DNA from: Tamarix chinensis
Taxonomy: Eukaryota; Streptophyta; Magnoliopsida; Caryophyllales; Tamaricaceae
Length of the DNA: 64,000 bases
Direction: 5' to 3'
Assembly (NCBI GenBank): GCA_030549775.1
Contig: CM060180.1
Location: 27,175,590-27,239,589 of the forward strand
Position 1 is the first letter of the stretch, and each line of letters starts with the position of its first letter. The position numbers and the translations under genes are program-made. The notes below the pieces were generated by a model that was given only the letters and a program-made list of their open reading frames with translations, was not told the origin of the DNA and did not search any database. This document shows, one piece after another, positions 24,074 to 60,595 of this stretch.

Positions 24074-24173
24074 TGTAACACCCCCAAAATTCACTACTGA
24101 AAAATTTCGTTTTATTAAAAGATAATTTCGGAAGCAGATACATAAAACGTGAACTTTGGGAGTATTACCGCCA

Positions 24174-24219
24174 CACTTGGTACCAGACCGGTTCACTCAT
24201 ACCGTTCCAGTACCAAGTG
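24174..24219 (-). repeat. Terminal hairpin of LTR A
   Basis: Arms CACTTGGTACCAGACCGGT and ACCGTTCCAGTACCAAGTG, 19 nt each, separated by 8 nt. Copies C, D and E carry the same structure; where E has A/T at the sixth pair, A has G/C on both arms. Confidence 0.7.
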
Positions 24220-24749
24220 CTAAGGCTAAGAAAATGAAATACAGCTTGAAAGAAATTCAATACACACAAATCAGAGTAGCGCATCAAATCGTTTACAAGA
24301 ATAAAATCTACCAACGATGGTTACAGTAACACATAACATTAAAACCAGAAATTTAAAGAGAAAGAGAAAACCCTAACGATACCGGATAACTCCTTACTCT
24401 CTTTCTCATAGCCCACTTGAGTAGCACCTGAAAATACCTGCAAGGGCACTGCCCATTGAATAGGCAGGGGCCCCATAAAGGGAATCCCTTCAGTACTACG
24501 GTACTGAGTAACCCTTTAATACCACACTTAAAGACAGGCCCGCATACGGCACACAATGCAAGCCACACACATATAATAATGAGAGATGCATACATAACAA
24601 TAACAAACATAATACTTTATAAGTCACGATCGATACTTTGGGCCTTAAGCCACGTCATAGTGTAATATCAATACATTCGGCCTTAAGCCATTATTCCATC
24701 ATCATTCCATCAGACTCATATTTTATATCCATGTGAGTACGAGAACCCC

Positions 24750-25175
24750 ACTATTATAGCCGGTGGATCGGAAAGTATACACTCAGGGTAGAACGCCTCT
24801 GACCACTATTATTGCCGGTGGACCGGTTTGGCCCCGACTCACATGGTGTTCCACTATAAGTGATTAGTATTTTTCCATAATTTTATTCACATACAATACT
24901 GGTTTTATTGAGCTCGGGACCCCCACTATTTTAGCCGGTGGACCGGAATATATATGAAATCATCATCCAGGGCACAACGCTCCTAGCCACTATTATAACC
25001 GGTGGACCGGTACTCATAATCACACACCAGGGCAACACGCTCCTGGACCACTATTATAACCGGTGGACCGGGATATATAAAGAATCATCATCCAGGGCAC
25101 AACGCTCCTGGCCACTATTATAACCGGTGGACCGGTACTCAATATCATAATCATCTGGGCCCGGCTCATTGATAT
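24750..25175 (-). repeat. Cassette blocks of LTR A
   Basis: Repeated CCACTATTATAGCCGGTGG-type cassettes in two blocks, separated by a stretch with CACTATAAGTG. Spacers between cassettes hold inverted repeats: TCAG...CTGA at 24783-24802 and CCAGG...CCTGG at 25027-25046 and 25092-25111; the copy at 24967-24986 ends CCTAG and has one mismatch. Each cassette also has the dyad CCGGTGGACCGG. Confidence 0.8.
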
Positions 25176-25839
25176 TCCACTTTCAATAATAGTATCTTTC
25201 CTTTTCTTTAATCAGCACATCAATCATATTTATTTGCCTCGAACGGGAGATCAATAACCCGGGACACAAAGGTACACCGGTCGTACCGGTTGGTGCATAT
25301 AAGCTACTCAGTACCCTTTAACCACGAACCCAAGGACGCAAAGGTACCCTGGTCGTACTGGTGCATAAAGCTAACTCAGTACCCTACCGACAAGGACACC
25401 TAATCCATAAGTATGCATACCCTCTAACTAGGTCCGTAGAGGTAGAAAGAGTAAGATATAGGGCCTGGCTGGGGCATAAAGGCATACCAACAAATACCAG
25501 AATAATCGTGGACTAAACCACGTCCTTAGGGTAGCGACCCCTAAGGAGTCACCATTCCCGATCTCGAGGTCTTTCACTTTAAGTAATAGTGTCTTAATTA
25601 AGGTGATCACGAAAAACACGATAATCCGATACTTATTCACTTTTAATCGTTATGATATCATCAATCATTTCTTATTTAGATGATTATACGGAAATTCACA
25701 GAGAAATCATTAAGGTCATACTAATTATCAAACACTCTTACTTGGCTAATCAGCATTATTTGATTCATATTATAATGTTCCACAATCTCAAAGACATGTT
25801 AGGTACAAATTACTCATTTGCCCTTTACTTATATAATTG

Positions 25840-27120
25840 TTAAGTATCCATTCCTTACTCGCCAAATTACCATACTACCCTTTAGGTTATATAATTACCA
25901 AATTACCCCTTATACGATTTAGGTTACCAAATTATTCCCTACACTTTTTAAATCACCATTCACTCCTCATAATTACTACACTTATCATATTTCCCATTTG
26001 GTTGGTTAGATTACCAAATCGCCCTTCTCCTTTGTTATAATTACTAAATCGCCCTTGAGTTGGATAAATTACTAAATTACCCTCCTTCATTATCATGATT
26101 ACTATTTTGCCCCTTTAGTTGGTTAAGTAATTATCACTTTACCTTTTAATCGGCTAAATTACCAAATTTCCCCTTTAGTTGGATAAATTACCAAATTGCC
26201 CTTCTCCTTTATCATAATTACCATTTTACCCCTCTCAATTATTTTAATTGCCATTTACCCTTTTTAATTATCATAAATCCCAAATTACCCTTCTTCATAA
26301 TTACCAACATTAATTTACCCTTCTTCATAATCATAATTATCAATTTACCCCTTCTCCATATTTATAATTACTATATTACCCTCCTCCATTATTAAAATTA
26401 CCATAATACCCTTTAATTGGTTAATTTACCCAAATTACCCTTCTCTAGTATCATACTTATCCAATTGCCCTTCTACAATCATAATTTAATCACTAAATTA
26501 TCTTTCGCCGTTATCATAATTACTAACTTACCCCTTACTCCCAAGTTTACCATAATATCCTTTTATTTACAAAATTACCCTTCTACCCCTTACTTTCAAA
26601 TTACCATAATATCCTTTTATTTATTAAAATTACCACCATACCCCTTTTACTTGTAAAATTACCATAACACCTCTTTTACTTTACAACTTCCTATCTTACC
26701 CTTTTACATCCAAAATTACCATTTTTATTCTTACAAAATTACCATTTTGCCCTTCTTTTCCAAAATTACCCTATTACCCCTTACTTATAAATTACCATTT
26801 TGCCATTCACTTATATAATTACCACATTACCACTTACTTATGAAATTACGATTTTGCCCTCTACCTTCAAAATTACCATATTGCCCCTTTTACTTGAAAA
26901 ATTACCATAATGCCCTCCTTCATCCAAAATTACTATTTTACCCCTACTTCCAAAATTACCATTTTACCCTTCTTTCTCACAACTTACAATTTTATCCTTT
27001 ACTTATAAATTATCATTTAACCCCTTTTATTTTTAAATTACCAAACTACTCTTTTTGTTTACAAAATTACCAAAATGCCCTTTTTCACTTATGAAATTTC
27101 CATTCAACCCCTTTATTCAC
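25840..27120. repeat. Degenerate AATTACC minisatellite in LTR A
   Basis: Dozens of copies of a roughly 17-45 bp unit such as AATTACCATTTTACCCCTT. Open frames across it are repetitive translations, not genes. The same position in LTR C holds an unrelated minisatellite. Confidence 0.8.
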
Positions 27121-27779
27121 CATTTTTATGAATTTACTAACACTACATAAAATAATGATATTAATACTTCATTTTTATCATCTAAGTCCACCAACTTGTC
27201 ATTTTTCAACATAATACTCATTAGCAACTACATACATTGATTTACATACCTCACAAGCATAATTACTAAAATACCCTTAAACAATAACATCATTCATGCA
27301 TTAGCGACATGATACATCATAAACAAGTATTTAACATTTCCATCCATAATCAAACTACTTTCTTAATTAACATACCTACATATGGCACAAAAGTCATCAT
27401 GCTTTTCCTTTTTATCAAACAATATAATGAACCATATACATATCATGCTAAGCACCCAAAACATGCATAAAATCATACTAAACCCCTAACGTGCTAGCAT
27501 ACGTTTTTCCATGTATTTAAGGGAGGATTAATGGTTACCTTAATCCCACAAAATATCAAATCTTACCAAGCATAATTAGCAACTCAACACCTGAAAATAA
27601 TATCCATCATATTTATGTTAGAAATAAGAATCCAAGTATAAAACTTTATAAATTTTAATTAATAAAACACTTAACATAAAATACCATTATACCTTAAAAA
27701 TTAGCCAAATAATTTTTAAAATGAAGGGGAGCTCACGCTGCATGAGCAGCATGAGTCTCATGCAAAAATGAGGGGTGGA

Positions 27780-28990
27780 AGGGTTCGAAGGGGGGTGAAG
27801 GAAGCAAAATCTATTATTTTCGGGTTAGGGTATTTAGGCTAGAAAAGAAGGTGGTTAGGGGAGGTTCTAAGGCAGGGGAATGGTGCAGAAGTGAAGAGGG
27901 GGTGTAGGTGGAGGCTAAGTGTGGTTTCACGACGGCATAGGGCGGCAGAGACGGTGGCGGCAAGGCGGTGAAGTTGGCTGCCAAGAAGGGTCGAGGGAGA
28001 GGGGCCGAGAAGGAAGGAAAAGGAGAGGGAAAAATGGAGGGGTTAAAGGGCTGTTTTTGGCTAACTAATGCATGGAGGTTGTAGAGGGGTTGCAGGGTGT
28101 CGAACGGTGGGTTGGGTGGCGGCAGAGGTGGCCGGAAGGTGGCGGAAGCGGCGGTTGCAGGTGGCTCGGCGGTAAGGGGAAAAACTGGGGAGAAAAAGGA
28201 AGAGGAGGAGAAGGGAGGAAGTGCAGGGCTCGAAGGGGCGGCGTGGTGGTGCAGGGTGGTAGTGGGTGGTGGCAGGAGGCGGCGCAGGGGTTGGGCTTGG
28301 TGGTTCGAGCGGCGGCGGGCAGCGGTGATCAAAAACCGGGGGAGAAAATGGGGAAGGAGGAAGGAGAGAGGAGGGAGCTCGGGAAAGGGAGTAGGGCTCG
28401 AAAAAATGGGGAAATGAAGGCTTGGAAGATGAATAAAAAGAAGAGGGAGAAGAGAGGGGGCAGGGCTGGCCGGCGATCGGTGCTGCAGGTGGCAGGTGGT
28501 GGTCGGGTGGCAGGGGAAGAAAGGGGAGAAGAAGGAAAGGGAGAGGGGCATGCAGGGCTGTGGTCCAGGGCCGGTTTGGCTCAAAAAAAGAAAGAAAATG
28601 ACGGGGGAGGAAAGAGAGGGAGAGGGAGGTAGGTGGTGGCCGGGTTGCAGGTGGCGACATGCTCGACCATGGCAGAAGAAATGGTCGGGCGTGGGAGAAG
28701 AAGAGAGGCGAAGAAGAAAGGGATGGCGGGCGGTCGGACCGGCGCAGGAAAGAAGAGCAGCCCGGCCGGTCCAAAGGAAAAATAAAGAGGGACGTTGGGC
28801 TGCTGGACGGCGTGCGAGGAGGAGTGGCTGGGGGAAGAAGCGGGCTGGAGGGACGGGCTGGACGTGCGTCAGGCACGAGCGAGGAAAAGGCAGAAGCGGG
28901 CCGAAGGCCCAGTCGCGCGGGGAGGAAGGAAGCAGGCCGGTGCGGGCGGCCCAAGGAGGAGAAAAAGAAAAAAAAAAAAAGAAGAGAAGA
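27780..28990 (-). other. Pyrimidine-rich tract of LTR A
   Basis: The sense strand is rich in C and T, so stop codons are rare and long frames stay open on both strands (for example 28584-27814 and 28954-28061, minus). The translations are proline/serine/leucine-rich with no domain. Not annotated as a gene. Equivalent tracts occur in LTRs B, C, D, E and F. Confidence 0.7.
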
Positions 28991-29363
28991 AAAGGAAAAA
29001 AGGGAAAAGGGTAAAAAGGGAAATGGTAAAATAGGGAAAATAATTTAAATTAATTTTATAAATCATAAAATGTAATATTCTTGATAATTTATTTAATTTA
29101 ATAATTTAATTTATTATAATCTAATATATTAGTTTAAAAAGGATAAAGTTGGTAAAATATTAGTTTGGGAATTTATTTAAATAAAAATAATATGATAATT
29201 AGCAAAATATTTATATTTAATTTATTAAATAATCTTATCCAAATTTATATACTCTAAAATCCATAAAATAATTAAAATAAATAATTTTACAAGCAAATTT
29301 TATTTCAAATAAAGTTATTTATTAAAATATAGGTTTTTGAAATTTTTGGGGTATTACAGTTAT

Positions 29364-30594: not shown

Positions 30595-32781
30595 AGTGAA
30601 ATACCTCTTAGGGACAACACACCCGAGCCACTATTATTATCCGGTAGAACGGACTCAACACCATAGTCCTGACTCACATAGTTTTTCACTTTAAATGATT
30701 AGTATCTTTCATTTAAAATTTAACTCTTAATTGTATTTTCATTCACATTGAGTATGGGGCCCCATTATGCTTAACCCGATGGAACAAATTGAAGTACCTC
30801 TCGGGGACAACACACCCGAGCCACTATTATTATCCGGTGGAACGGATCCATATAAACACTTTGAGCTGACTCACGTGATATTTTACTTTAAATGATTAGT
30901 ACCTTATTCAAAGTTGACTATATATTATCATGCTGAACTCCTATAAATGCACAAGATATAGCGCTTAACAACATAAATACGAACACGTAATTATCCTCAA
31001 ATGATCATAATACCCTTAGGGTAGTCAATAAAATCGTATTTTCCCAAAGCCTCATGAAACCCAAAGCATATAAATTTCCAATTATTATCCAAAGTACATG
31101 TTCTCAATTTTCCATTAATATCCTGTATCCAACATTATACCCAAATATGTACTTACATAATTTCATTACTCTCAATAATATCATTTAATAGTATTTCCAT
31201 AAATAAATTATTCAACGCAACATACTCAACACAAAAGCATATATATAAATACAAGTATCACATAAATCCCTAGCTACGACATGTATCCTTACCAATAAGG
31301 ACATCGGGCTCTATACACGTAAATTCTATACTTCCTTTGAGATAACCAAAAGATCGCCTACAAAAATAAGATAAAATATGATTAGGAATAAAGATTAAAA
31401 ATTGATACGGCAATTAAGGTAAAGGAAAGTAAAAATGAAATTTATCGGAGTAAAATAGAAGCTTGAATTGTATGGAAGTGTAGAAGAACGTGTGGTGGAG
31501 CTATGATTAAATTTTAGTAGTGTTTGGACAAAATTTGGGAGGGGTACATGGCTAAAAAATAAAGTTGTATGGCCAGGCGGTGCAAGAGTTGTAAAGCTAT
31601 ACAACAACAGCGCACAATAGGTCGAGGATGACCAAGTGGTGCAAGAATTGCACGATTGTGCAGCACTGGGTCGAGAGGAAAAAATGTACAGCTAGACGAG
31701 GCAGGAGTTGCACAGCTGTGCAGCAGGTAATTTAAGCGGTGCACTATCGTGCACTCTACGATATTGCAACGAACAAGGGGAAGAAGAATGAAAAAGAGGC
31801 AGTGGTTAGCGATGATGGTTGGTGATGGCGAAGGGGAAGGTTGGGGCAACCTTGTGGTCGATCCACCAGCTAAAAGGCAGTGAGTGGTGGCTTGGGTGGT
31901 ACTCGGTGGTGGATTGGGTGGTGCGAATGCTGAAAATAGAGAAGAAGGAGGAAGGAGAAGGAGAAGGGAGAATGAAGAAGAGAAGAAGGTCGAGGAAGTG
32001 AGGGATGAAAATAAAATGGATGGATGGAGGGGTATATATATTAGTATGGTGGCATGCCAAGGAGGAGAACGATAGAAGGAGGTGACGACGACAATGATGA
32101 TAATAGGTTGAGAAGAAGAAAAGAAAGGATAGGGGTGATGGTGATGGTTGAAATCGATGGAGATCAGGCAAAGGCACGAGGGATGATGATGATGATGATG
32201 ACACACGAAGGAGACATGCATGGGAGAGGAAAGTAGGGAGTGTGATCGTGATGGTGGCTGCAGGTAAAAAATAGAGTAGTATTAAGAAGAAGAAAGAAGA
32301 AGAAGAGTGGCGGGGGAAATGATGGTGGTGTGTGGGATGTGTAGAGGAAGGGAAGAAGAAGAAGGCAAGCACGAGGGATGGCAGGGATGGTGTCATGGCG
32401 CATGTGGGAGACAAGTAACAGTGTGGTGCAGAGGAACTCAATTTCTTCATGCCACAAAATCGATGTAGGAGAAGAAGGAAAAACAAAAGAAAATAAAAAG
32501 GAAGAAAAGGGAAGAAAGGAAGAAAAAGAAAAGGAAAAGAAAGAAGGATTAGGGGATTAGGATTAGATTAGGTAATTTCATATTAGCCAAGCAATTTGGA
32601 TTAGTGGAAATTTTAGTGGGTTTTTATTTTGGTTTACGAATTACGGTTTATCTAAATTAAGATTTTAGTTTTGGTATTAAGAAATTTAGTTAAGGCTAAT
32701 AATATAATTTCTTGAGATTAGAATCAAATTAGGGCGCTAATTACGCGAAATTAGGCTAGGAAAAATTTTCGGGGTATTACA
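30595..32781 (-). mobile_element. Truncated solo LTR B
   Basis: The sense (minus) strand starts TGTAATACCCCGAAAATT at 32781 and has a pyrimidine-rich tract (about 31500-32560), a GTAAGG donor-like site near 31290 and two cassettes (30598-30660, 30790-30850). The 3' module and terminal hairpin are absent, with the copia RT adjoining directly at 30595. The second cassette carries a perfect CTCGGG...CCCGAG inverted repeat at 30800-30820. Confidence 0.7.
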
Positions 32782-42200: not shown

Positions 42201-42639
42201 ATATTTGAAATGCCCCGAAAAATTCTAATCTAAAATATTATATTTAAATGAGATTTTATCATAAAGATTAATTAAATAAATTATTTTGATTAAAATAAAA
42301 GGAAATTAATTAGGAAAAATCAAGGATAAATTTATAAGTGTGTTAATTAAGAGAAATTGGGTATTTTAGCTAATTAAGGATTTGTATTTTAGAAATTAAC
42401 TAAATAAATTATTTTATTTAAAATAATGAGGAGAAAATAGTTTCAAATTAATATTAATTTTATAAATAATTTAATTGGAAGAAAATTAGGGTTTTTGCTA
42501 ATTAAAATAGAAGTTATGGAAAATCTATTAAAAATCCTAATTTAGCCTAAAAAGGGATTTAAATATTATTTTATTTAAATATTATTATTTTTAAATATCC
42601 TAAATATTTAGATTAATTTAATTGGGCCTAACCTATTTT

Positions 42640-43820
42640 ATTTCTCCTTTCCTTTTTCCCTTTTTCTTTTTCCTTCTTCCTTTTTCCTTTTCTTTTTCTT
42701 TCTTTTTCTTTTTCCTATTCTCCTCGCCGAACTGGGCCAGCTCGCGGCCCAGTTCCCCTTTTTCTTTTCTTCTTCTTCTTCTTCGGCGCGGCCCAGCCCG
42801 CGCGGCTGTTTCTTCTGCCAACGCAACGCCGCGTTTTGTTCCTTTTGTCGCCGAAACTCGTCGTTCCATTTAATCCGTTACCCCTCGCGCCCGTTGCCTT
42901 TCTTCCGCCCGAATAAGCGCTGCGTTTCGTCCGTGTTACGGCCGAAGCTCGTCGTTTCATTTAATGCACACTCGACCGCGCGCGAACCGGCCCGGTTCTC
43001 CCCTTTTTCTTTCTTTTCCCGGCCGACCGGCCGCCTCCCTTCCTTCTTCCTTCTTCCTCCTTCCTCCTCCGTCGACGCTGCTGCACCTTCGACCCCGTCA
43101 ATGGCATCTCCGGTTACGGTCAATAATACCGGCCGTTTCTTGTCTCATTGTCTTCCTATTAACTCCAGAAATAACTTCGTATAATTATTTGACGTTAACT
43201 CTCGGCCGTTTCTCCTCCCCAACCTCTCGAAACCCCGAAGCCAACCCAAACGTCGACCGACCGTTTTCCGACGCCGGCTGCCCAAATCCTTGCATTTAAC
43301 ACTTCCATGTCAACCTCCAGCTCCTCTTTATCCATTCCAACATCTATAAATAGCCTAATGGTAGGACCTTTGGATTTCTTTTCTTCCCCGAAACCCTCGG
43401 CCCGAGCTGCCGCCACCCCAACTTCAGACGCCTCATCCGCCACCTTCGGCCAACATCAGCGCCACCGAAACATTCCATTCTCTTCCCTGAAAATTCCTCT
43501 AGTTAACCAGACTATTTTTACCTCTCGATTATTCTTGCACGAGCCTCCATAGCCGTGCCAAGTTGGATGCTCGTTCTCGCCTGAATTTTTACCCAGAAAG
43601 CATTAAACCGCCTTCCGCCGCCGTGCGCCGCCACCTTTGGCTGCACCAACACCATCATTTTGTCCCTCTCCTCTTGGGCAACAATAAACACCTCTTATAT
43701 CACCTCAATTCTCCCTATCTTTTTCCCAACATTCATCTTTCCCTCTTTTCTTCTGTTTTTCCGGCCACCGTCGCCGCCGCCGTGAACCACCGCCGGTGCC
43801 ACCCATCCCCACCAGCTTAA
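42640..43820 (+). other. Pyrimidine-rich tract of LTR C
   Basis: GC-richer, C/T-biased stretch with several overlapping open frames on both strands that reflect composition, not coding. It may be the transcribed leader of the LTR (inference). Confidence 0.6.
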
Positions 43821-43889
43821 GGTTGAACCCTAGACCCTCTCAACCATTTTCCATATTAGTATATGCCTTGATTTAATTTATTTCAATTA

Positions 43890-44366
43890 TTTGCATATAA
43901 TTACCATTATTATTATTCTTAATATGTTTTATTACTATTTGATGAGAAATTTTATTCTGAATTTTACTTGCAGGGTGGAGAGTGGTAATAAAACAATATT
44001 ATTGTTAGTTTTGAATTTTAAGTTATTAAGTGAATTATTATGGGATTATTATCATTCTTCTTAGTATTATTATTAATATTATAATTATTAGAATATTTAT
44101 TATTATTATCATTTTATTAATTATTCTGGAAAATATTAGGCCCTAATTTTGTATTAACATTTGCACTTATTTATTTTAGTATTATTGTTTCTATTGTTCT
44201 TATAACTATTGATGATAATATTATCAGTATCTTTATTATTTTTAATATTATTATATATGTTAGTAATTTTATTATTTATATTAAATAATTGTTAAGTCAT
44301 TAGTTATAAGTAGGGTCGAAACCCCACTTTAAATTTTAAAGCTTATTATTATTATTATTATTATTA

Positions 44367-44402
<36 letters not shown>

Positions 44403-44470
44403 TCATTGATATTAGTTTTATTATCTTTGATATTATTATATTAGTATCATTATTATTATTAGGGTAAAGT
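43890..44470. repeat. ATT-rich microsatellites in LTR C
   Basis: Long ATT runs (about 44345-44402) among degenerate ATT/ATA. Matching positions in LTRs D (54480-56110) and E (58240-59035) are also ATT/AAT repeats. Confidence 0.75.
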
Positions 44471-44904
44471 CTTGAATCCTATATTATCAAGTTTTATAAT
44501 ATCTCTATTATTTTTATGTCTTTAGCAAAGTTAGAATTTTGTTAAGGTTATTATTTGGTCAAAGCCCTAAGGAGGCGTAGGAACGTGCTCCAAGACCGGT
44601 GTCGTTTCAGGTAAGGGGTGCTAAGGCCTATTATGTGCTAATGTGCATTGTGTGCCTCGTATTCTATGCATTCTATGTTTATGATTATTAATTATGCCGT
44701 ATATGATATGACATGGAGTTGAAGTATGCTTTCGTATGACATGTGTATTATTTGTGTATGACCCTGTAAGACATGCATGTGAGGATGTTGATATGATTTT
44801 ATGTGGGAGAAAGGATGAAAAAGGAGGATGGGGAAAGAAGTTGACTAAGGGAAGTGAGTTGACCTAATTTTATGAATTTATGAGGAATAATCTATTGCAT
44901 GGTT

Positions 44905-45430
44905 TTATTTGGAAGAATGTAATCTATGATGTTATATGGGAGAATCGAATTATTGTTTAATTGGGAGAATCTAATTTATGATTTGTGTGGTAAAATCCAA
45001 TTTATGGTTTTATATGGGGAAGTTTAATTTATGGTTTGGTATGATTTTATGTGAGAGAAATTAATATATGGTTTGTATGGAAGAATTTAATTTATGATTT
45101 GATTGGGAGAATATAATTTATGATTTGTTTGGGAGAATCCAAATTATGGTTTTGCTTGGGAGATTCAAATTTATGATTTTATGTGGGAGAATCTAACTTA
45201 TAGTCTTGTATGGGAGAATACAATTTGTGGTTATGAAAGGGGAGAATCTAATCAATTGTATTATGTGGAAAAATCTTTGGGTTTTATATGATTTGAATCC
45301 TTGTGTTGGTATGGATTGAATTTAGGGTTTTGTGTGAATGAATCTTTGGGATGTATATGGTTTGATCTAGGGTTTGGTATGAATGAATCTTTGGGTTATG
45401 TGGATTGAATTTAGGGTTTGGTATGATGAG
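44905..45430 (+). repeat. GGGAGAATCTAATTTATG minisatellite in LTR C
   Basis: About a dozen copies of a roughly 26-30 bp unit, GGGAGAATCTAATTTATGAT, to about 45240, followed by repeats containing GAATCTTTGGGTT and TTTAGGGTTTGGTATG. Not shared with LTR A, D or E. Confidence 0.75.
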
Positions 45431-45903
45431 GTTTTGGGTTTTACATAATGGTTAATGTTTGCATGGTTGAAATTAGGGTTTCACATGGAATTTTAGGGTT
45501 TGCATGAAAAAGGTTCGAAGGTTAGTATGGGGAGATTAATGTCTGCATGGGTATGAAATTATGTGTGGAAAGTTAATTTGGGATGTAAGGAAGGTAATGT
45601 AAGTGTTGTTTGGGTGTTTGAGCACTTGGGATGAAAAATAGCATGTGGAGCAAATTAAGGGTACGAAGGAGACTAAATTAGGGTTTTGGGATAAAACCCT
45701 AGAGTGAGATGTGAAGTAGAATTGGAGGATAAGTGTAAAGGGAGCGATCCATGCATGGCTAGGGTTTGGTGGTAGCATATGTGTATATGGTGATTAAAGA
45801 TGATGATGAATATGGAATTTATGATTTATGATTCGTGCATGTGCATGGTGAAAGCCTTTGAATAAGATACTTAAGACATTAATCACGTAAAGTGGAAGAT
45901 GTT

Positions 45904-46250
45904 GAGACGGGCCCAGACCGATCCACCGGCATAATAGTGGCAGGGAATATTTCCCTCGCGACCGATCCACCGGCTAAAATAGTGGCAGGGAACGTTTCCC
46001 TCGCGACCGATCCACCGGCTATAATAGTGGGGGATCCCGAGCTCAACAAAACAAAACGTTATATGTTGAACGATATGGGAAGACACTAATCACTTAAAGT
46101 GAAACACCGTATGAGAAGGGGCCAGACCGATCCACCGGCTATAATAGTGGCAGGGTATGTTACCCTCGCGACCGATCCACCGGCTAAAATAGTGGCAGGG
46201 AACGTTTCCCTCGCGACCGATCCACCGGCAAAAATAGTGGGGTTCCCGTA
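45904..46250 (+). repeat. Cassette blocks of LTR C
   Basis: Two blocks of three cassettes (GACCGATCCACCGGC plus TAATAGTGG). The spacers are perfect inverted repeats: AGGGAA/TTCCCT at 45942-45956, 45987-46001 and 46197-46211, and AGGGTA/TACCCT at 46152-46166, where both arms have changed together. The blocks are separated by a stretch with CACTTAAAGTG. Confidence 0.85.
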
Positions 46251-46452
46251 ATCGTATGGACTTGAATAAAAGTATGGTGTGACATGATTCTGATAAGAGA
46301 TTAATTAAACAATTAATCTGGATTATATGGGCCTTTGTACTTTTACCTGAATTGTTCATATACCTTTATGATGTTATGTTGGATTATGCCCTGTTATTAT
46401 TCTGCATGGATTATGCGCTTGTGTGTTGGCCTTAGTGCTCGGTTACCTTACT

Positions 46453-46488
46453 CAGTACGTAGCGTACTGATCACCCTTTTTATGGGTG
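46453..46488 (+). repeat. Paired small hairpins of LTR C
   Basis: CAGTACG-TAG-CGTACTG at 46453-46469, then CACCC-TTTTTAT-GGGTG at 46472-46488. Both are conserved as structures in E (60780-60796 and 60799-60815). D keeps the first (52627-52641), and A keeps CAGTAC-TACG-GTACTG (24491-24506). Confidence 0.75.
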
Positions 46489-46774
46489 CTGCTCATTCCC
46501 ACGAGTAGTATGCCCTTCTGATTTGTGCAGGTGGGCGAGATATCAGTTGGGGTTGAGTGTTGAGCATGTTGGGCTCGAGATTCAAGAGAGTTGTGGCCAT
46601 ATCATAGTCTTTATATGACTCTAATTCTTTTTGTTAAACTTTTATCGGTTGTAAGTTTAATTCTCTTTTGGAAATGAATTACATTTCTTGATGCGTACTC
46701 TGAATTTGTTTTACAACCGTTTAATGCTTATTTGGAAATTGAATTGTATTGGTTATTTCTTTTCTTAGCCTTAG

Positions 46775-46820
46775 CACTTGGTACTGGAACGGTCAGAGAG
46801 AACCGGTCTGGTACTAAGTG
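46775..46820 (+). repeat. Terminal hairpin of LTR C
   Basis: Arms CACTTGGTACTGGAACGGT and ACCGGTCTGGTACTAAGTG, about 100 bp before the LTR 3' end, with one G-T pair and a few internal mismatches. Confidence 0.7.
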
Positions 46821-46924
46821 TGGCGGTAACACTTCCAGAATTCACAGGTTTTCAGTGCTTCTAATTTAATTGCTTCCGCTTTTAAGAAAAAAAAAATTAG
46901 TGAATTTTGGGGTGTTACAATATT

Positions 46925-48815
46925 TTTCGTACTTATAAAATAGACACATTTTATGAATAATATTTGATGAATGTATAGAATGAAAAACTAGTTACGAAAC
47001 AATAGATATTTAAAATAGGTCATTGGATAAGTTACCTAACTTAATACACAATTTACAAAAAAAAAAAAACATAAATAATATTAGTTCTCTAATAGGAGAG
47101 CCATGTACGTATAATCATAATGTATTTATTAATACCAAAATTAGGGATCGCCGTCCCTTATCATATTCATTTACCCCGTTCGTGAATAACTTATTATTAT
47201 TACCAAAAATGATTAACGAACCTAAGCTAATAATCTAAACCCAGATATTTGAGGTTGGAAGACTTGTCTCATGCGGTCATGCCATGCGAGCGTATTATAC
47301 ATGTTATACAGGGTTGATAGGTGGCAATGCATGTGTGTGTAGCGTTTATAGTATAAAATCAGGAATATTATCCTATTACTAACAATGGAGATAAGCAATA
47401 ATAGCAGCTAGCTAGCATATATATCATATGATTCATATTATTATGTAAGTGATAACAGGTAAGAGCAACAATATATAACGTCGGTGGAGCAATGGGGCCA
47501 AGGATGACAAGCCTGGAAATGACACATTAAGGACTACTCTAACGGTACAATATCTATATATATTATCAAGCAAGGAACATTAATTTAGCTATTAAGCAAG
47601 GAAGTCGGAGTAGGAAGCAACTATCACGCAGAACAGTAAATATGTACATATGTATTTATATAGGACCGTTATATATCAAGAATAAATTTGAACTCGATTT
47701 ATTTAATAAATGAATATAAAAATAAAGTTTGAACTTAATTTGTTTATGAATAGATTGAGTTTTTAATGTATTGAGCCGACTCGCAAATTTTCGTGGTAAA
47801 TAAGTCAAGTTTATAAATTTTTATACCGTAAACGAATTTAAATTTAAAATTATTATGTTTAAACTTAATTCAATTAATAATAGAGTAGAATTTAAATCTT
47901 ATTTTTAAATTTAATTAATTAAATAAATGAGTCAAACTAAATATTTAATAAGTAGAATGTAAAAAGTTTACGAATCCAACCCTATACTATATGTTTGCAT
48001 GGCTAGGCAACCAGAGCTGAAAGTACAACACAGTGTCGAGCGTGAGAGATGAGACGGGAGAGGTACAGAAGTTAAATTGATAGGGAAATATGCATGAACC
48101 AAGACTAATATACACATATAGCGAAAATGTTGCACAGATTTCAATAAAGACAATCAACTCAAAACAAAAGTTTAGTTATTTATTGGATTTCAGTTTTCAT
48201 TTTTTTAAAGATTTAAAAATTATATTTACAATTTTTATTTTCTGTTTTCAAATTAAAAATTAGAAAATATGAGTTTTTATTTTTGTAAAAAAAATGAAAA
48301 AGATTATAATATATTTTTTTGAAATTTTTATATAAATATATGTTCTTATTTTATTATTGATTTTTTAATTGAAAAATCAATAATAATATTAATACTATTT
48401 TGATTATTACTAAGAATAATTTTAATATGCTTATTACTTTTAGTCATAATAATATTATTATTTAGATTTTACTAATATTTATTAGTCCAAATATTAATAA
48501 AATAATACTAATAATATTATTATCATTGATAACATAGTTAATAATAATAATTATATATTATTATTATTATTATTAACATTAATATTCATAATGATATTAT
48601 TATTCACTTTAAGATTAATATTGTTATCAATATTAAGAAAATAATAATATGCTAATTATTAATATTAAAATTCATAATAACATTATTATTAAAATTAATG
48701 AGTAATTAATAATATAATTACTAATAAAATTAATATTACTAGTATTAATATTAATATCAATTTCATTGATATTAAGAATACATTTATTATTAATGTTAAT
48801 ATTTTATATTTATTA

Positions 48816-51433: not shown

Positions 51434-52233
51434 TGAAATACCCCAAAACCCTAATTTAGGGAATCATGGCCAAATAAGAAATTATTAGGAAAATTAATTA
51501 AATAAACTATTTTTATTAAATAAGAGAGAATTAATTAAGGTAAATCTAGGAGAAATTATAAATAATTTTAAATAGGAAAAAATTGAGTATTCTGCTAATT
51601 AAAATAGAATTTAAGGAAATTCTTTCAAAATCCCTAAATTAGCCTAAAAAGACAATTTAATCATTTTTTTAATAATTATATTTTATTACATATCCCAAAT
51701 TACCCAAAATATATTTGATTAAGCTAATCCACCTTTTCCCTCTCTTTTTCCTTTTTCTTTTTTCCTTTTTCCCTCTCTTTTTCCTTTTCTTTCCTTTCCT
51801 TCTCTTCCTTTTTCTCCTTCTTCCCCCGACCTGGGTCGGCCCAGTTGCCCAACTCCTCCCTTCCCCTGTGCGGCCCAGCATCCCCCGCACCACTCCTTCC
51901 CTCTCCCGGCCGGTTCGAATAATTTTTTTTCTTTCTTTCTTCTTTCTCCCCGGACCACCGGTCCAACCTTCTTCTTCCCCCCTGTGTCGTCTTCTTCCCC
52001 CCGACACACCTGCAACTCCCAAATCGGCGCCGGATTTTCTGCCTCCGATCACGCCGTTTGACCCGTCGTTCTCCTCCTCTCTTTCCCGTCGTCTTCCCTG
52101 TCATTTCGTCTCGGTCGGCCATTCCCTCCCCTGCTGTAACACCCCCAAATTTACTACTGAAAAATTTCGTTTAACTAAAAGGGTTTGGCGGAAGCGAAAA
52201 GATAAAACCGTAAACTTGGGAGCATTACCGCCA

Positions 52234-52279
52234 CAGTTAGTACCAGATCGGTTCACTCCTACCGTTCCAGTACTAAGTG
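52234..52279 (-). repeat. Terminal hairpin of LTR D
   Basis: Plus-strand arms CAGTTAGTACCAGATCGGT and ACCGTTCCAGTACTAAGTG, with a mismatch at the third base relative to other copies. Confidence 0.65.
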
Positions 52280-52824
52280 CTAAGGCTAAATAAAGTTAAC
52301 ATTAAATACGAATCATTAATAAAACACAAGTCATACAGAAATCAGAGCACGATTTAGGATTACAAACCAAAGAGTACATGACTAGAGTTTTTCAAACATA
52401 AAGCATAGTACAAAAACACAACTAAAATATGATAATACAAGGTTCAATAAAAGAAACAGAGTCTGGCCGATCACTCTCGACCCCCAAGCCAAATTTAGGT
52501 TCAACTCTCGGCCCCGCCCGATGCCTCGTAGGTGTCATAGGCATCAAAGACGTCGTCCCCTACCTGCACAAACTCAAACGGGTCTTCTGCTCGTGGGAAT
52601 GAGCAGCACCTATAAAACGGGTGATCAGTACGTTGCGTACTAAGTAAGGTAACAGATGCGCTAAGGCCAAGCATACAAACATACAACATAGCACAATCAC
52701 ATAGGCAGCATGTAATAATATAAATGATGAAGGCCAGCTATGGTCCAATCAGACTTACTTTCTTGTAGATCTCTATTAATTATAGTTATTTCACACCATA
52801 ATATTTATTAATCCATGTGAGTGC

Positions 52825-53200
52825 GGGAACCCCACTATTATAGCCGGTGGATCGGTCACTTATAGGGAAAAACACACCTAACCACCATTATATGCCGGTG
52901 GATCAGTCTCCAGGGCATATCGCTCCTGGCCACTATTATGCCGGTGGATCGGTTTGGCCCCGACTCTCATGGTGTTTCACTGTAAGTATATAGTAGCTTT
53001 CCCATAATTCATTGGCAACATAATGTTTGATTTGTTGAGCTCGGGATCCTCCACTATTATAGCCGGTGGATCGGTCACTTATAGGGCAGAACACACCTAA
53101 CCACTATTATATGCCGGTGAATCGGTCTCCAGGGCACCCCGACACCTGGCCACTATTATGCCGGTGGATCGGTCTGGGCCTGGTTCAACAATCTTACTCT
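52825..53200 (-). repeat. Cassette blocks of LTR D
   Basis: Two blocks of three cassettes with TATTATAGCCGGTGGATCGG and variants. Spacers carry TAGG...CCTA (52863-52880 and 53082-53099) and CCAGG...CCTGG (52910-52929 and 53129-53149). Both arm types occur in both blocks in the same order. Confidence 0.82.
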
Positions 53201-54479
53201 TTAAGTAATTAGTATCTTATTTGTGTCTTATTAGAATAAGCTTTTCACCATTGACATGCATGTCAACTACCTTCTACTTCTATTCTCCCAAGGGGGTCCG
53301 TCCCATATCTTAAGACTCCTACGCCCCTTATCACACCCCGACGCCCATTTCCTTGTACACATACACTTAATGAAAACCCAACTCCTACGGGTGTGGGTTA
53401 GGCCCAACACCTTATAACATCAACTCTACCTTCTATCACCCTCTAGGGTTTTCCCTTGAAAACCATAATTGGACTTATGTGGCCCAACTTCCTCTCACTT
53501 ACACTACCGTACTCCATTTATCGCCCCACACCTTATCTCATTTAGATCCAATCCCAAATCATATAACCTTACCCCTCGATTAAACAAGTGACCGGAAAAA
53601 CCCTAGTTGGCCACTTCAAACCCTAGTACTTTTCTTCTCCCACAAGTAACCTCTCTCTTTTCACCCAATATCTCTCCTCTCCCATGGCATCCATAATCAC
53701 CCTTTATAAAATAAATTTCCACTCTTAACCCGTACTCCACTCTCCCTTAATCATTTTTACTTCCACATTTTCTAGATTAGTGCTTCATCCCCAAAACCCT
53801 AATTGGGTCCCTTACACCCTTACACCAACCTACGTACTATTTCTCATCCCAAGTCTCCAATCACACCACAATTATCCCCTTAGTTTATTTACACCCTAAT
53901 ACAAATTTTCTCACGTAAAGATCTTCCCCATGCAAGATTTATCCACTCCATACAAAATCTCAAAGTTCCCATGCAAATTTTAAGGCTCCCATGCATGGTT
54001 CCCATCTCTCATTCATTTTGGCCATTCCTCCCTCTTTAATTTCCTCTCACAGATCATGAGGTATTTTGGTCAACCTCATATACCCCTTAGTGAACCCACT
54101 TCTCATCTTCTTTTTTTTTGTCCTTTCATTTCCATATCATATTATCAATGGTCCTATCATGCATGTCGTAGAGGGCCATAAAATATCACATCATGATCAC
54201 CATATATACATATAACACACATGTCACAAGAAAACATATACAAACATACCTTAACTCCAAACTACGCTACACATAAGACAAGTTAATAACAATCATGTAT
54301 TACACGACGTAGCATGATATAAATCATCCAAGGCATACAAGTCACACAACACACATAGGCCTTAGCTACATCCTTATCTAAAGTGACGCCAAGCTTGGAG
54401 CACACTCCTACAACTCCTTAGGGTTTTGGTTTAATTCACTTATAAAAGGGAAAATACTAAGTATTATTTTCCCTCAAAA

Positions 54480-55087
54480 GTACCATCACTCCTTGTTTTA
54501 GTCTAAGATTAGGATTATTATTATTAAAGAGAGTATTATACGAAAACTAGGGTTTTTATCTTAAAAATAGTCTACTAAATATTACTAGTCAAAATATGTT
54601 TATTTTAATATTTATTGCTACACTTATATTATTAAACCTATTAGCTTTATTCTTCTAATAATAGTACTGATACTAATTATAGCCAAATAGTGATAACAAT
54701 AATACTAATAGTAATGCTAATGCTTATAGTGATAGAAACTCTAGCATTTTTAAGGCTAAGTCTAATAATAGTGTTAGAGTTAAAATAATAATATAATAAT
54801 TGCAATACCAACAAAGTACAAATATTCCTAAAAATAATAATGATAAAATTTATATTTTGAATAATAATAATATAAGGGTTCAAATGTTCTGGTCACAATA
54901 ATAATAATAAAATAATAATAATGATAATAGTAATAACTAATAATGATACCATAGTAACAATGTTAGTGCTAAAGGCATTAAGAATAATATATTAATGATA
55001 TTCTAATATTAAATAGTAAAATACTAATGCTTAAGTATTCTTCCTCTTTAACGACAAAACGATAATACTCCAACTTCGGTTTAAATA

Positions 55088-55185
<98 letters not shown>

Positions 55186-55726
55186 AAAAATGTTAAGTAC
55201 AATAATAATAACAATAACAATGATAATAGTAACCAAAATGATAATAATAATAATAATAATAATAATAATATAAGGGTCTAAATATTTATATTAATAAATA
55301 ATAGTGATAATGGAAAAGTTAGTATTAACCATATTAGCAAGGAAATAATGATAATGATAATGGTAATAACAATAGTAATAGTACCAATAATAATAGTAAT
55401 AAAGTTAGGGTTAAGTAGTGATAATAATAATAATAATGGCATTAATAATAATAATAATAAATAAGAATAATACTAATAGTAATGATAATAAAAATGGTAG
55501 TAGTAACTAGTAATATAAGGTTTCAAACGTTTACCATAATAGTAAAGATAACGATAATAGGCCATAGCTAGCATTAGTAATAATAGTAGGAATAATAGTG
55601 AAGTTAGTAATAATAATAATAGTAAACGAGGAAAAGTCCCAATCATAATAACACCAAAGTTGTAGGCCATCATTAACGATAATATTATTATTGGTAAGAA
55701 AAATCATAAAGTTAGGCTAAGTAATG

Positions 55727-55762
<36 letters not shown>

Positions 55763-55828
55763 GAGATAACTATATTAATACTAACGTTGTTAATAATAAT
55801 AATAATGATAGTAGTATTAGTAGTAGTA

Positions 55829-55893
<65 letters not shown>

Positions 55894-56110
55894 CATTTTA
55901 ATGTTAAAGTTGTAGCCTTTTAAATAGTTTACCCTAGTTATAAGTATTTTCTGAAATTAGGTTAGGAAACAAGGGGGATACATAATAATAATATTAGTAA
56001 TGGTAATAATAATAATAATCACCATGATAATATAAAATTAATAATAAGAATAATAATAATAATAATAGTAATATTAAGGATAATACTAGTAATATTAAAT
56101 AAAATTATTA
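54480..56110. repeat. AAT/ATG microsatellite field in LTR D
   Basis: Very long AAT runs (for example 55093-55145, 55724-55760 and 55840-55890) and a GAT run (55146-55185), as in LTRs C and E at the matching position. Confidence 0.8.
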
Positions 56111-56114
56111 ACAC

Positions 56115-57300
56115 TTATAGAAAATAGTTTAGGGGCTGGAAAGTTAGAGCACCACCTAAGGTTAGGGGTGGAACAGGCGGCGGCGAATGGCGGCAACGGC
56201 GGCAGCGGTGGAGGAGAGAGAGAGGGGAAAGATGGACATGTAGGCTAAGAGAGAGGAAGTGGAGGGGTGTTTGAGGTGGTGGAAGGTGCAGCAGGTGAAG
56301 AGGGGTGGAATGAAGGTGGTGGTGCAGCTGGGAGTGGCGGCGCACGGCGGTTGGTGAGGCGGCCGAAGGTGGTGGAAAATGGTGGAAGATGGAGGAAGTA
56401 GAAGGAGGGGGAGGCAGGGGGAGATGAAGGTTTGGGAAGGTAGGGGAAGGTTCCCTGGGTGTTTTGGAGGGTGGGGGAGGTGTTGGTAGCGGCGGAAGGC
56501 GGCGCAACGGGCGGCGAGGGGCTGGAGTGGACTGCTCGGGTTGGCGATTTTGCACGGCCGGGGCGGCATATGCAGGGAAATTCGAGGGAAAAGGAAGGTC
56601 TGTGCAAGGATTGGTTTGGGGGATTTTTTGGCCGGCTGCGATAGGCGGCGGAGGCAGGGCGCTCGTCTGATGGGGGGCGGCGAGAATGGTGGATTTCTGG
56701 GTTTTGAAATCAAAACCCAAATTAAGGATGCCCATTGGGTATTTATAGATCAATTGAGATGGGTAATGACAGGAGGAAGGAGACAAAGAAGGTGCAGATG
56801 CCAGGCATGCCGCCGGTGGTGGCAGTCGAGGCGGCACTGCCATGGCAGGGACGACAAGCTCGAGGGAAGAAGGAAAAGGAAAGGGGCAGGGTGCTCGGGA
56901 GAGGGGAATAGGTGGGTTGGGGCGAAAATGTGAAAGAAAGCGACGGGAGAGGAAGGGGGAGGACGGTGGCAACAATAGCGGCCGGTGAAATGCTGGGTTG
57001 CACCCCTCGGTCGCCGCCACTCATAGGGGAAGAAGAAGGGCTCGGGACCGGGCGGCTCAGGGAGAAAAGAAGAAAAGAAAAAAGAACCGGACCGGCCGGG
57101 GAAAGAAAAAGGAAAGGAGAGGAGTGGCGCAGGCCTGGGCTGCCGGGGAAGCTGGGTCGCGCGATGGGCTGGCCCAGGTCGGGGGGAAGGAAAAAGAAAA
57201 GAGAGGGAGAGGAAGAAAAGAAAAAGGAAAAGGAGGGAGAAAAAGAAAAGAAAAGGGAAAAATGGAGAAATAGGTGGGTTGGGTATTTTGGTATTTTTGG
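56115..57300 (-). other. Pyrimidine-rich tract of LTR D
   Basis: The sense strand is C/T-rich; open frames such as 57020-56115 (301 codons, minus) are proline-rich and have no domain. Composition explains their length. Confidence 0.6.
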
Positions 57301-57376
57301 GTTATTTTAAAATAATAATATTTAGAAAATAATAATTAATTCCTTCTTAGATTAATTTAGGCTCTTTTTGAATAAT

Positions 57377-57424
<48 letters not shown>

Positions 57425-58239
57425 TCCCATTTTAGTTAGCAACACTCCCTAATTTTTTTTAATTAAATTATTTATAATTTTCCTCTTGATTATCCCTAAA
57501 TAAATCCCTTATATTTTAATAAAATAATTTATTTAATTAATTTTCCTAATAAATCCTCACTTAGCCATAATTTCGAGAATTAGAATTTTGGGGTATTTCA
57601 CTTGCTCGTGCCATTCCCCTTTCCCGAAAAGCATGGCCTACACACGTAGACCTGCGCCGGCCCATCCTCGCCGGTCGGAGCACCATACCCCTTACCCCCT
57701 ACTCTCCCACCCTACTTTGTTGTTTTACCTCTCGATCAGTTTATAAATAGCCCCGAAGGCTGCCATAATTGAGTTTGGATTTTGGCAGCCCATAAAACCA
57801 ATTTAGCGACCACCGCCTGTTTAGCCATCTGTTCCGCCGCCATCGGCCGCCTTTGCCGCCCGATCTAGCCACCAAAATTCTCCCTGCACCGCCCTCTACA
57901 CAACCGAACCACCAGCTTTCCTTGCCTTGCCCTGCACGAGCCGCCCCGGCCGTGCGAAATTGCATCCCCCAACAGCCTCATTCGACCCCGCGCCGCCTTC
58001 GCGCCGTCGGTTGCCGCTGATTCCACCGCCTACAGCGCCACCTCTACCCCCCAAAACAACCAGGGAATCCTGCCCTACCACCCCACATCTCCATTTTCCC
58101 CTACTACCCTCTCCCCTAGCCTCCACATCCACCTCTCCACTTCTTCCTCCCTCCACCGCCGCGCCGGCACCACCACTTAGCCAGGTTGCCTCCCACCTCC
58201 TTGAACCCTAAACCTTGAATAATAAAAGTGTTAATGATT

Positions 58240-60244: not shown

Positions 60245-60595
60245 CCAGACCAGTCCACCGGCGAATAATAGTGGCCAAGAGCCGGGGTACCCTGGAGACC
60301 GATCCACCGATGAATAATAGTGGCTAGGAGCGTGTTGCCCTGTATGATTCCGGTCCACCGGCTATAATAGTGGGGGATTCTGTGCTCAACAAACCAAATG
60401 TGATAAAACTAAAACATGGGAAATGTACTAATACTTACAGTGGAACACCATGTGAGTCGGGGCCAGACCGGTCCACCGGCAAATAATAGCGGCCAAAAGC
60501 GTTTTGCCCTGGAGACCGATCCACCGGCGAATAATAGTGGTCAGGAGCGTTCTGCCCTGTACGTATCTCCGATCCACCGGCTATAATAGTGGGGC
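60245..60595 (+). repeat. Cassette blocks of LTR E
   Basis: Two blocks of three CACCGGCGAATAATAGTGG-type cassettes. Spacer inverted repeats are weaker than in A, C and D, with short CCA/TGG or CAGG/CCTG arms, as expected for an older copy. Confidence 0.75.

Follow-up and report, generated by a model that had tools for sequence, protein, structure and literature searches.

The LTRs of Sireviruses, which belong to Ty1/copia, contain palindromic repeated motifs (RM boxes) that have been proposed to act in cis-regulation (PMC2829016). As given in the part of that paper used here, one box is present in at least 8 copies that are commonly more than 85 % alike, a CGG-CCG core is found in 12 of 13 elements, and most boxes are in the upper half of the LTR and precede a conserved TATA box. 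The LTRs of Del elements are long with a GC-rich variable 5' region, and a search by word beginnings in the text of PMC4029996 gave 0 hits for hairpin, stem, palindrom, tandem and secondary structure. In maize transposable elements, the excerpted source links hairpin-rich LTR regions to small RNAs and reports that hairpins concentrate in Copia LTRs, with Ty3 generally lacking an obvious peak (PMC10760457). For rRNA and microRNA genes, the relevant sections of PMC8794818 describe template-switch hairpins with compensatory changes, sometimes several, on single branches. Among the titles and abstract openings listed by keyword searches of the open-licence literature, outside which most subscription papers lie, none described covarying palindromes in Ty3-type LTRs.

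The 64,000-nucleotide stretch of Tamarix chinensis DNA analyzed here (the window) contains copies of an LTR family with unusually long end repeats that is very abundant in this one genome (Table 1). The window corresponds to C10:27175590-27239589 and, judged by its LTR types, reads as plant nuclear DNA; several of its LTRs measure about 5 kb. LTR A and LTR C are solo LTRs because exact 5-bp flank repeats directly abut both tips, and LTR D, where four of the five flank bases match, is probably a third. The 3' tip of LTR C is GGGGTGTTACA. An iMet primer site is located directly past an LTR end on the minus strand at positions 510-525 of the window and, since it adjoins that LTR end, the sense strand of LTR C is the plus strand. 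A second iMet primer site, with 1 mismatch, follows one LTR end in L009, a stretch of the wider sample described below. At 525-1520 of the window, an LTR 3' end with the tip of the family stands beside the primer site and continues into ATT repeats; no good cassette match was found in this interval. In another sampled stretch (L019, 5148-6478) we observed a second LTR-like family, whose tips TGTAATACTCC and TGTAACACCCC lie 440 bp from each other and which has an iMet primer site.

The LTRs have TG...CA tips, a 5-bp target repeat and an iMet primer site, which are features of Del/Tekay (Ty3) elements and are common to other lineages too. Judged from the LTR tips, the primer site and the 5-bp flank repeats only, they look like Del. 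Like the Del LTRs as described in the consulted source, they are long and have a GC-rich variable 5' region. Three LTR 5' ends (42206-42800, 57040-57600 and 28800-29358) pass from about 350-450 bp of AT-rich sequence through a pyrimidine tract into GC-rich sequence and recall the variable CpG island reported from the 5' region of Del LTRs. No coding region was tied to these LTRs in the two places inspected: 0 Pfam families were matched by three short frames that follow the primer site of L009, and no long pol-like frame was seen in stretch L060.

Read on the sense strand, a cassette consists of CCACCGG-N0-3-ATAATAGTGG followed by a palindrome (the box) and then by a linker of variable sequence. 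The exact core CCACTATTATAGCCGGTGG has 46,837 matches genome-wide while the reversed control has 0. Our sample consists of the window plus 51 stretches (L009-L059) chosen within the first 3 Mb of C1 by exact matches to the core, all from one genome, and yields 378 cores at up to 3 edits and 240 spacers between neighbouring cores, 216 of them distinct. The cores fall into 170 blocks, of which 126 were assigned a type (65 to block 1 and 61 to block 2) and 44 remained untyped, including 37 single matches. Three cores are present in 46 of the 65 block 1 and 52 of the 61 block 2 copies, the order block 1 then block 2 is found in 52 neighbouring pairs, and the gap between neighbouring blocks is 97-103 bp in 56/69 cases. 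The usual layout is three cores and two palindromes over about 100 bp, repeated, near the LTR 3' end, and from this block layout it follows that an LTR normally holds four boxes in fixed slots. The two blocks are located about 0.65-1.1 kb upstream of the LTR 3' end in the sampled LTRs and start 3.7 kb into the 4.7-kb LTR C. Within the window they are seen in A, C, D and E, the same four LTRs in which a sequence-only reading of this DNA had found them to recur.

The same reading had given each cassette a dyad resembling CCGGTGG(A/T)CCGG. This holds for most copies in LTR A and some in LTR E, which read CCGGTGGACCGG on the minus strand, but LTR C and most of LTR D have CCGGTGGATCGG and no full dyad. 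A CCAC/GTGG stem inside the core was considered and rejected, with 0 paired changes in 370 cores and a low pairing probability.

In 18/24 LTRs, CATGCATG or a copy with at most 2 changes precedes block 1 by about 90-110 bp; we take this motif to be RY-like. On the other side of the array, exact TATAWAW within 50 bp after block 2 gave 13 matches (overlaps counted) in 24 LTRs, and with one mismatch allowed a TATA within 45 bp was found in 62 % of 60. A universal TATA box directly after block 2 was thus rejected by both scans, and neither they nor the sequence of the LTR 5' ends revealed a transcription start.

Table 1. Coordinates in the window of the LTR copies, cassette blocks, palindromic boxes and downstream hairpins
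Feature	Position	Strand	Detail
LTR C, solo LTR, 4,714 bp	42206..46919	+	5-bp flank ATATT on both sides; starts with TGAAATGCCCC
LTR A, solo LTR, 5,285 bp	24074..29358	-	flank repeat ATAAC
LTR B, remnant	30607..30840	-	cores and boxes
LTR D, ~5,466 bp	52135..57600	-	start uncertain; flank repeat 4/5 bases
LTR E, 3' end	61312	+	LTR E start not found
LTR C block 1	45923..46030	+	cores 45923-45940, 45967-45985, 46012-46030; two palindromes between
LTR C block 2	46132..46240	+	cores 46132-46150, 46177-46195, 46222-46240; two palindromes between
LTR A blocks	24748..25130	-	cores 25112-25130, 25048-25066, 24987-25005, 24923-24941, 24803-24821, 24748-24766
LTR B cores	30821-30840, 30628-30647	-	
LTR D cassette blocks	52832..53167	-	
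LTR E cassette blocks	60255..60592	+	
Palindrome AGGGAA-TAT-TTCCCT	45942..45956	+	LTR C block 1
Palindrome AGGGAA-CGT-TTCCCT	45987..46001	+	LTR C block 1
Palindrome AGGGTA-TGT-TACCCT	46152..46166	+	LTR C block 2; double-change copy
Palindrome AGGGAA-CGT-TTCCCT	46197..46211	+	LTR C block 2
LTR A boxes	25092-25111, 25027-25046, 24967-24986, 24783-24802	-	first two both CCAGG/CCTGG
LTR B boxes	30800-30820, 30607-30627	-	first CTCGGG/CCCGAG; second with one-arm decay
LTR D boxes CCAGG/CCTGG	53129-53149, 52910-52929	-	
LTR D boxes TAGG/CCTA	53081-53100, 52862-52881	-	
LTR E boxes	60275-60295, 60324-60343, 60493-60512, 60541-60560	+	
Hairpin TCAGTACG-TAG-CGTACTGA	46452..46470	+	downstream of blocks
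Hairpin CACTTGGTAC...GTACTAAGTG	46775..46820	+	near LTR 3' end; G.U pair in many copies

Box arms vary among boxes, slots and subfamilies yet remain complementary. In LTR C, AGGGAA/TTCCCT occurs three times and AGGGTA/TACCCT once, the latter exactly where the sequence-only reading had placed it; the CCAGG/CCTGG boxes that it reported in A and D, TAGG/CCTA in D and CTCGGG/CCCGAG in B were all located, and its description of E as weaker is borne out by one-arm changes in the LTR E boxes. We assigned 232 of the 240 spacers to 16 templates at 70 % identity or more, dropping 8; these templates were written after looking at structure, and 208 distinct boxes were counted in the resulting analysis. 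Most frequent is CCAGG-A-GC-GTTNT-GC-CCTGG, whose 5' arm has a bulged base and whose loop is 5 nt long. Perfect palindromes are also found (TAGGGTATGATACCCTA, TAGGACATGATGTCCTA, TAGGACGCGTAGTCCTA, AGGGTATGTTACCCT, AGGGCATGGCCCT and CTCGGG...CCCGAG). Three LTRs (L052, L020 on the minus strand, and L025) carry the same four mutually different box types in the same four slots, with small differences.

A chance origin of the boxes was rejected on three counts: stem scores, hairpin numbers in block-shuffled arrays and a pair count on 17-mers. The mean best stem score of the 240 spacers is 4.25 compared to 2.93 after shuffling, in agreement with the earlier expectation that they pair better than shuffled sequence. 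The arrays of 30 LTRs (7,163 bp) contain 32 perfect hairpins of at least 6 bp with at least 3 G/C pairs (nested ones counted), versus a mean of 3.96 and a maximum of 11 in 200 block-shuffles; outside the arrays such hairpins occur at 0.95/kb. Without the G/C filter the rates are close (4.47/kb in arrays, 4.07/kb outside), probably because of ATT repeats. At least one perfect hairpin is present in 10/30 LTRs and the remaining LTRs have bulged or decayed boxes. In the pair count on 23 distinct 17-mers, 87.6 % are paired versus 78.8 after shuffling and covariation is 0.280 versus 0.177, neither being reached in 500 shuffles. Three of the five measures exceed the shuffles in this way (0/500). The other two do not, namely pairs changed on both sides, at 368/500, and further pair types, at 500/500. 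In a cruder anchoring of the arms (201/240 anchored, 177 distinct), outer pairs 2 and 3 and inner pairs 2 and 4 exceeded the shuffles, outer pair 1 did so slightly, and inner pairs 1 and 3 did not; this anchoring put the bulged classes in the wrong register, and the templates took its place.

The same pairing is visible genome-wide. Of 7,327 GTGGCAGGGWANNNTWCCCTC sites, 6,228 are TA/TA, 1,070 are AA/TT and only 29 are mismatched, whereas about 1,848 mismatches are expected if the arms were independent (phi 0.984). Hand counts of 100 listed sites, all on C1, gave 83 T..A, 16 C..G, 1 C..A and 0 T..G for a T-A/C-G pair (2,059 sites in total) and 71 A..T, 17 G..T, 11 G..C and 1 A..C for a third pair (3,166 in total). 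Such site counts ignore descent, as one double change that is amplified repeatedly scores repeatedly; a test on a tree corrects for this. On a tree of 57 LTRs (112 branches) built from flanks outside the boxes, 36 double changes fall on the same branch, 27 of them from one Watson-Crick pair to another, compared to a null mean of 9.3 (sd 2.7, maximum 20 in 2,000 runs). An off-pair control in which one arm is matched with the wrong partner gave 11 and measures the exchange of whole boxes. Covariation is therefore above the tree-based null, as the sequence-only reading had predicted, and shared ancestry alone is rejected. A parsimony assignment of the fate of mismatches (22 compensation, 10 reversion, 1 unknown) involves ambiguous ancestors and carries no evidential weight.

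Paired change beyond shared ancestry is thus supported by the tree, the 17-mers and the 29 mismatches among 7,327 sites. The further claim that selection acts on pairing is plausible, but template switching can also yield paired changes. One explanation is mutation only, where template switching at quasi-palindromes homogenises the arms and the pairing has no function. The process is documented (in the sections used of PMC8794818 and PMC8604942), few intermediates survive (the 29 mismatched sites and the single C..A among the 100 listed), and mutation of this kind fits a lack of consistent strand bias; the paired changes on single branches are as in the hairpins that PMC8794818 describes. On the other hand, the boxes hold fixed slots beside a conserved core in a repeated LTR element, and the intermediate GGGC...GTCC is common (17/100 listed), indicating stepwise change. 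The commonest classes keep their 5'-arm bulge, which argues against pure arm homogenisation. No reverse-complement loop was found inside any template class (232 hairpins) and loops keep one orientation, a weak objection since inversions are rare in the examples of PMC8794818 as well. We take template switching seriously as a rival, and the paired changes may originate from it; we nonetheless regard mutation as unlikely to be the whole explanation. Many one-arm mismatches persist in the sampled boxes, so pairing is not restored in resident copies.

The sequence-only reading had offered an RNA stem array as one target of selection. We looked at this by comparing mismatch types, with the expectation that in a sense RNA helix G.U outlasts A.C. 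The ratio is a fair test in perfect palindromes because their arms offer nearly equal mutational context, and is less fair for the bulged classes. Over 208 distinct boxes the two mismatches are equal (77 G.U vs 77 A.C), with 7 vs 6 on internal and 52 vs 60 on terminal branches. For the AGGGTA/TACCCT class genome-wide, 190 sites are of the G.U type (6,418-6,228) and 389 of the A.C type (6,617-6,228), an A.C excess that may come from an inherited CAGGATATGTTACCCTC lineage and from one strand carrying a CHG site. One box class goes the RNA way, with 17 G.T vs 1 A.C among the 100 listed of 3,166. Mismatch types show no consistent strand bias, and are symmetric only on balance across classes. Folding both strands gave the sense strand no advantage: the mean hairpin energy of 169 distinct boxes is -5.14 for sense, -5.29 for antisense, -4.35 for arm-swapped and -2.21 for shuffled sequences, and in whole-block folds of 215 boxes the mean pairing probability is 0.33 for sense and 0.56 for antisense. 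A known Rfam element was rejected for window positions 44000-47000, where no family was found and the single match, to mir-263, is at chance level (E 0.19).

These results do not support an RNA stem array, in which the boxes would be stem-loops of the sense transcript, located in its 5' leader or 3' UTR and acting in packaging, dimerisation, stability or translation. What speaks for it, besides the class with 17 G.T, is that loops keep their orientation, that the commonest box has a 5' bulge and a 5-nt loop, that the giant LTR of Retrosat2 has a predicted R region of about 2 kb (in the section used of PMC3485330), and that some hairpins of the same LTR segment favour sense G.U. Among five hairpins nearer the LTR end, G.U and A.C number 18 and 6 in TCAGTAC/GTACTGA, 17 and 0 in CACTTGGTAC/GTACTAAGTG (14/17 at one pair) and 11 and 3 in a variant, CTGCCT/GGGCAG (8 at one pair); two others show no preference (5 vs 4 and 6 vs 7). 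The counts for TCAGTACG-TAG-CGTACTGA, 18 G.U and 6 A.C, come from 29 distinct copies, and its loops differ by subfamily. In CACTTGGTAC...GTACTAAGTG the sixth pair is G.U in 14, A-U in 5, G-C in 1 and A.C in 0 of 20 distinct LTR copies, and from this pattern that hairpin looks like a sense-RNA structure. For the boxes themselves we consider the RNA explanation possible and rather unlikely.

The alternative target was a DNA dyad bound by a dimeric protein. In its sequence-specific form, the half-sites would be AGG...CCT and the arms would covary by following the same protein. AGG/CCT is indeed common to most template classes (T2 and T7 depart), but AGG and CCT are 7 to 11 nt apart depending on the class, and covariation extends to flanking and inner pairs. 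A dimer site of fixed spacing is hard to reconcile with the variable stem offset and loop length, and we find this explanation highly doubtful.

We tentatively favour, at somewhat less than even confidence, the explanation that boxes and cores constitute a palindromic array of cis-elements in a family of giant-LTR retrotransposons, with no consistent strand preference. The conserved core would be a sequence-specific binding site, and the box beside it would be kept for pairing or for dyad symmetry at the DNA level, as a small cruciform, a single-strand DNA hairpin or a dyad read by an arm-tolerant protein. Many of the paired changes probably arise by template switching, during reverse transcription or replication, and would be kept because it is mainly paired versions that replicate. 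The array could then work as a promoter or enhancer module, comparable to the RM boxes of Sireviruses. It is our inference that the covariation reflects a function. Against this cis-element array, loops hold one orientation, which is needless for a strand-blind dyad. At 5-8 bp the stems are short for extruding a cruciform, and with no universal TATA after block 2 a promoter-proximal placement is conjectural. It is conceivable, and on balance improbable, that the boxes are a DNA element read by shape, in which intrastrand pairing matters, arm sequence is nearly free and each box is docked to a conserved core. We give the same low credence to the addition that these boxes diversified in fixed slots and spread genome-wide with tens of thousands of core copies.

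How the array compares with described systems follows from this architecture, within the portions of the cited papers used. As with the Sirevirus RM boxes, several short palindromes occur in the LTR and their arms differ between elements while symmetry is kept. Unlike the CGG-CCG core, most template classes here are AGG/CCT; instead of at least 8 similar copies there are normally four boxes, often dissimilar within one LTR; and the boxes lie close to the 3' end of the LTR, interleaved with a conserved core distinct from them, with no universal TATA after block 2. Since three of the Sirevirus features are absent, we do not class this as a Sirevirus array, although it would work like one. The sequence-only reading had called the structure undescribed, which is too strong because palindromic repeated motifs are already known from Sirevirus LTRs (PMC2829016). 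Like the structured regions of maize elements (PMC10760457), it is a hairpin-rich LTR segment. Unlike the template-switch hairpins of PMC8794818, it belongs to a repeated LTR element and the sample has 0 loop inversions.

The analysis puts a palindrome array into LTRs of Del-like appearance, in which pairing as such seems to be maintained while the neighbouring motif is fixed. With its thousands of copies, the family constitutes a natural mutagenesis set that separates pairing from arm sequence, and a DNA dyad, an RNA hairpin and a by-product of template switching can therefore be tested against each other.
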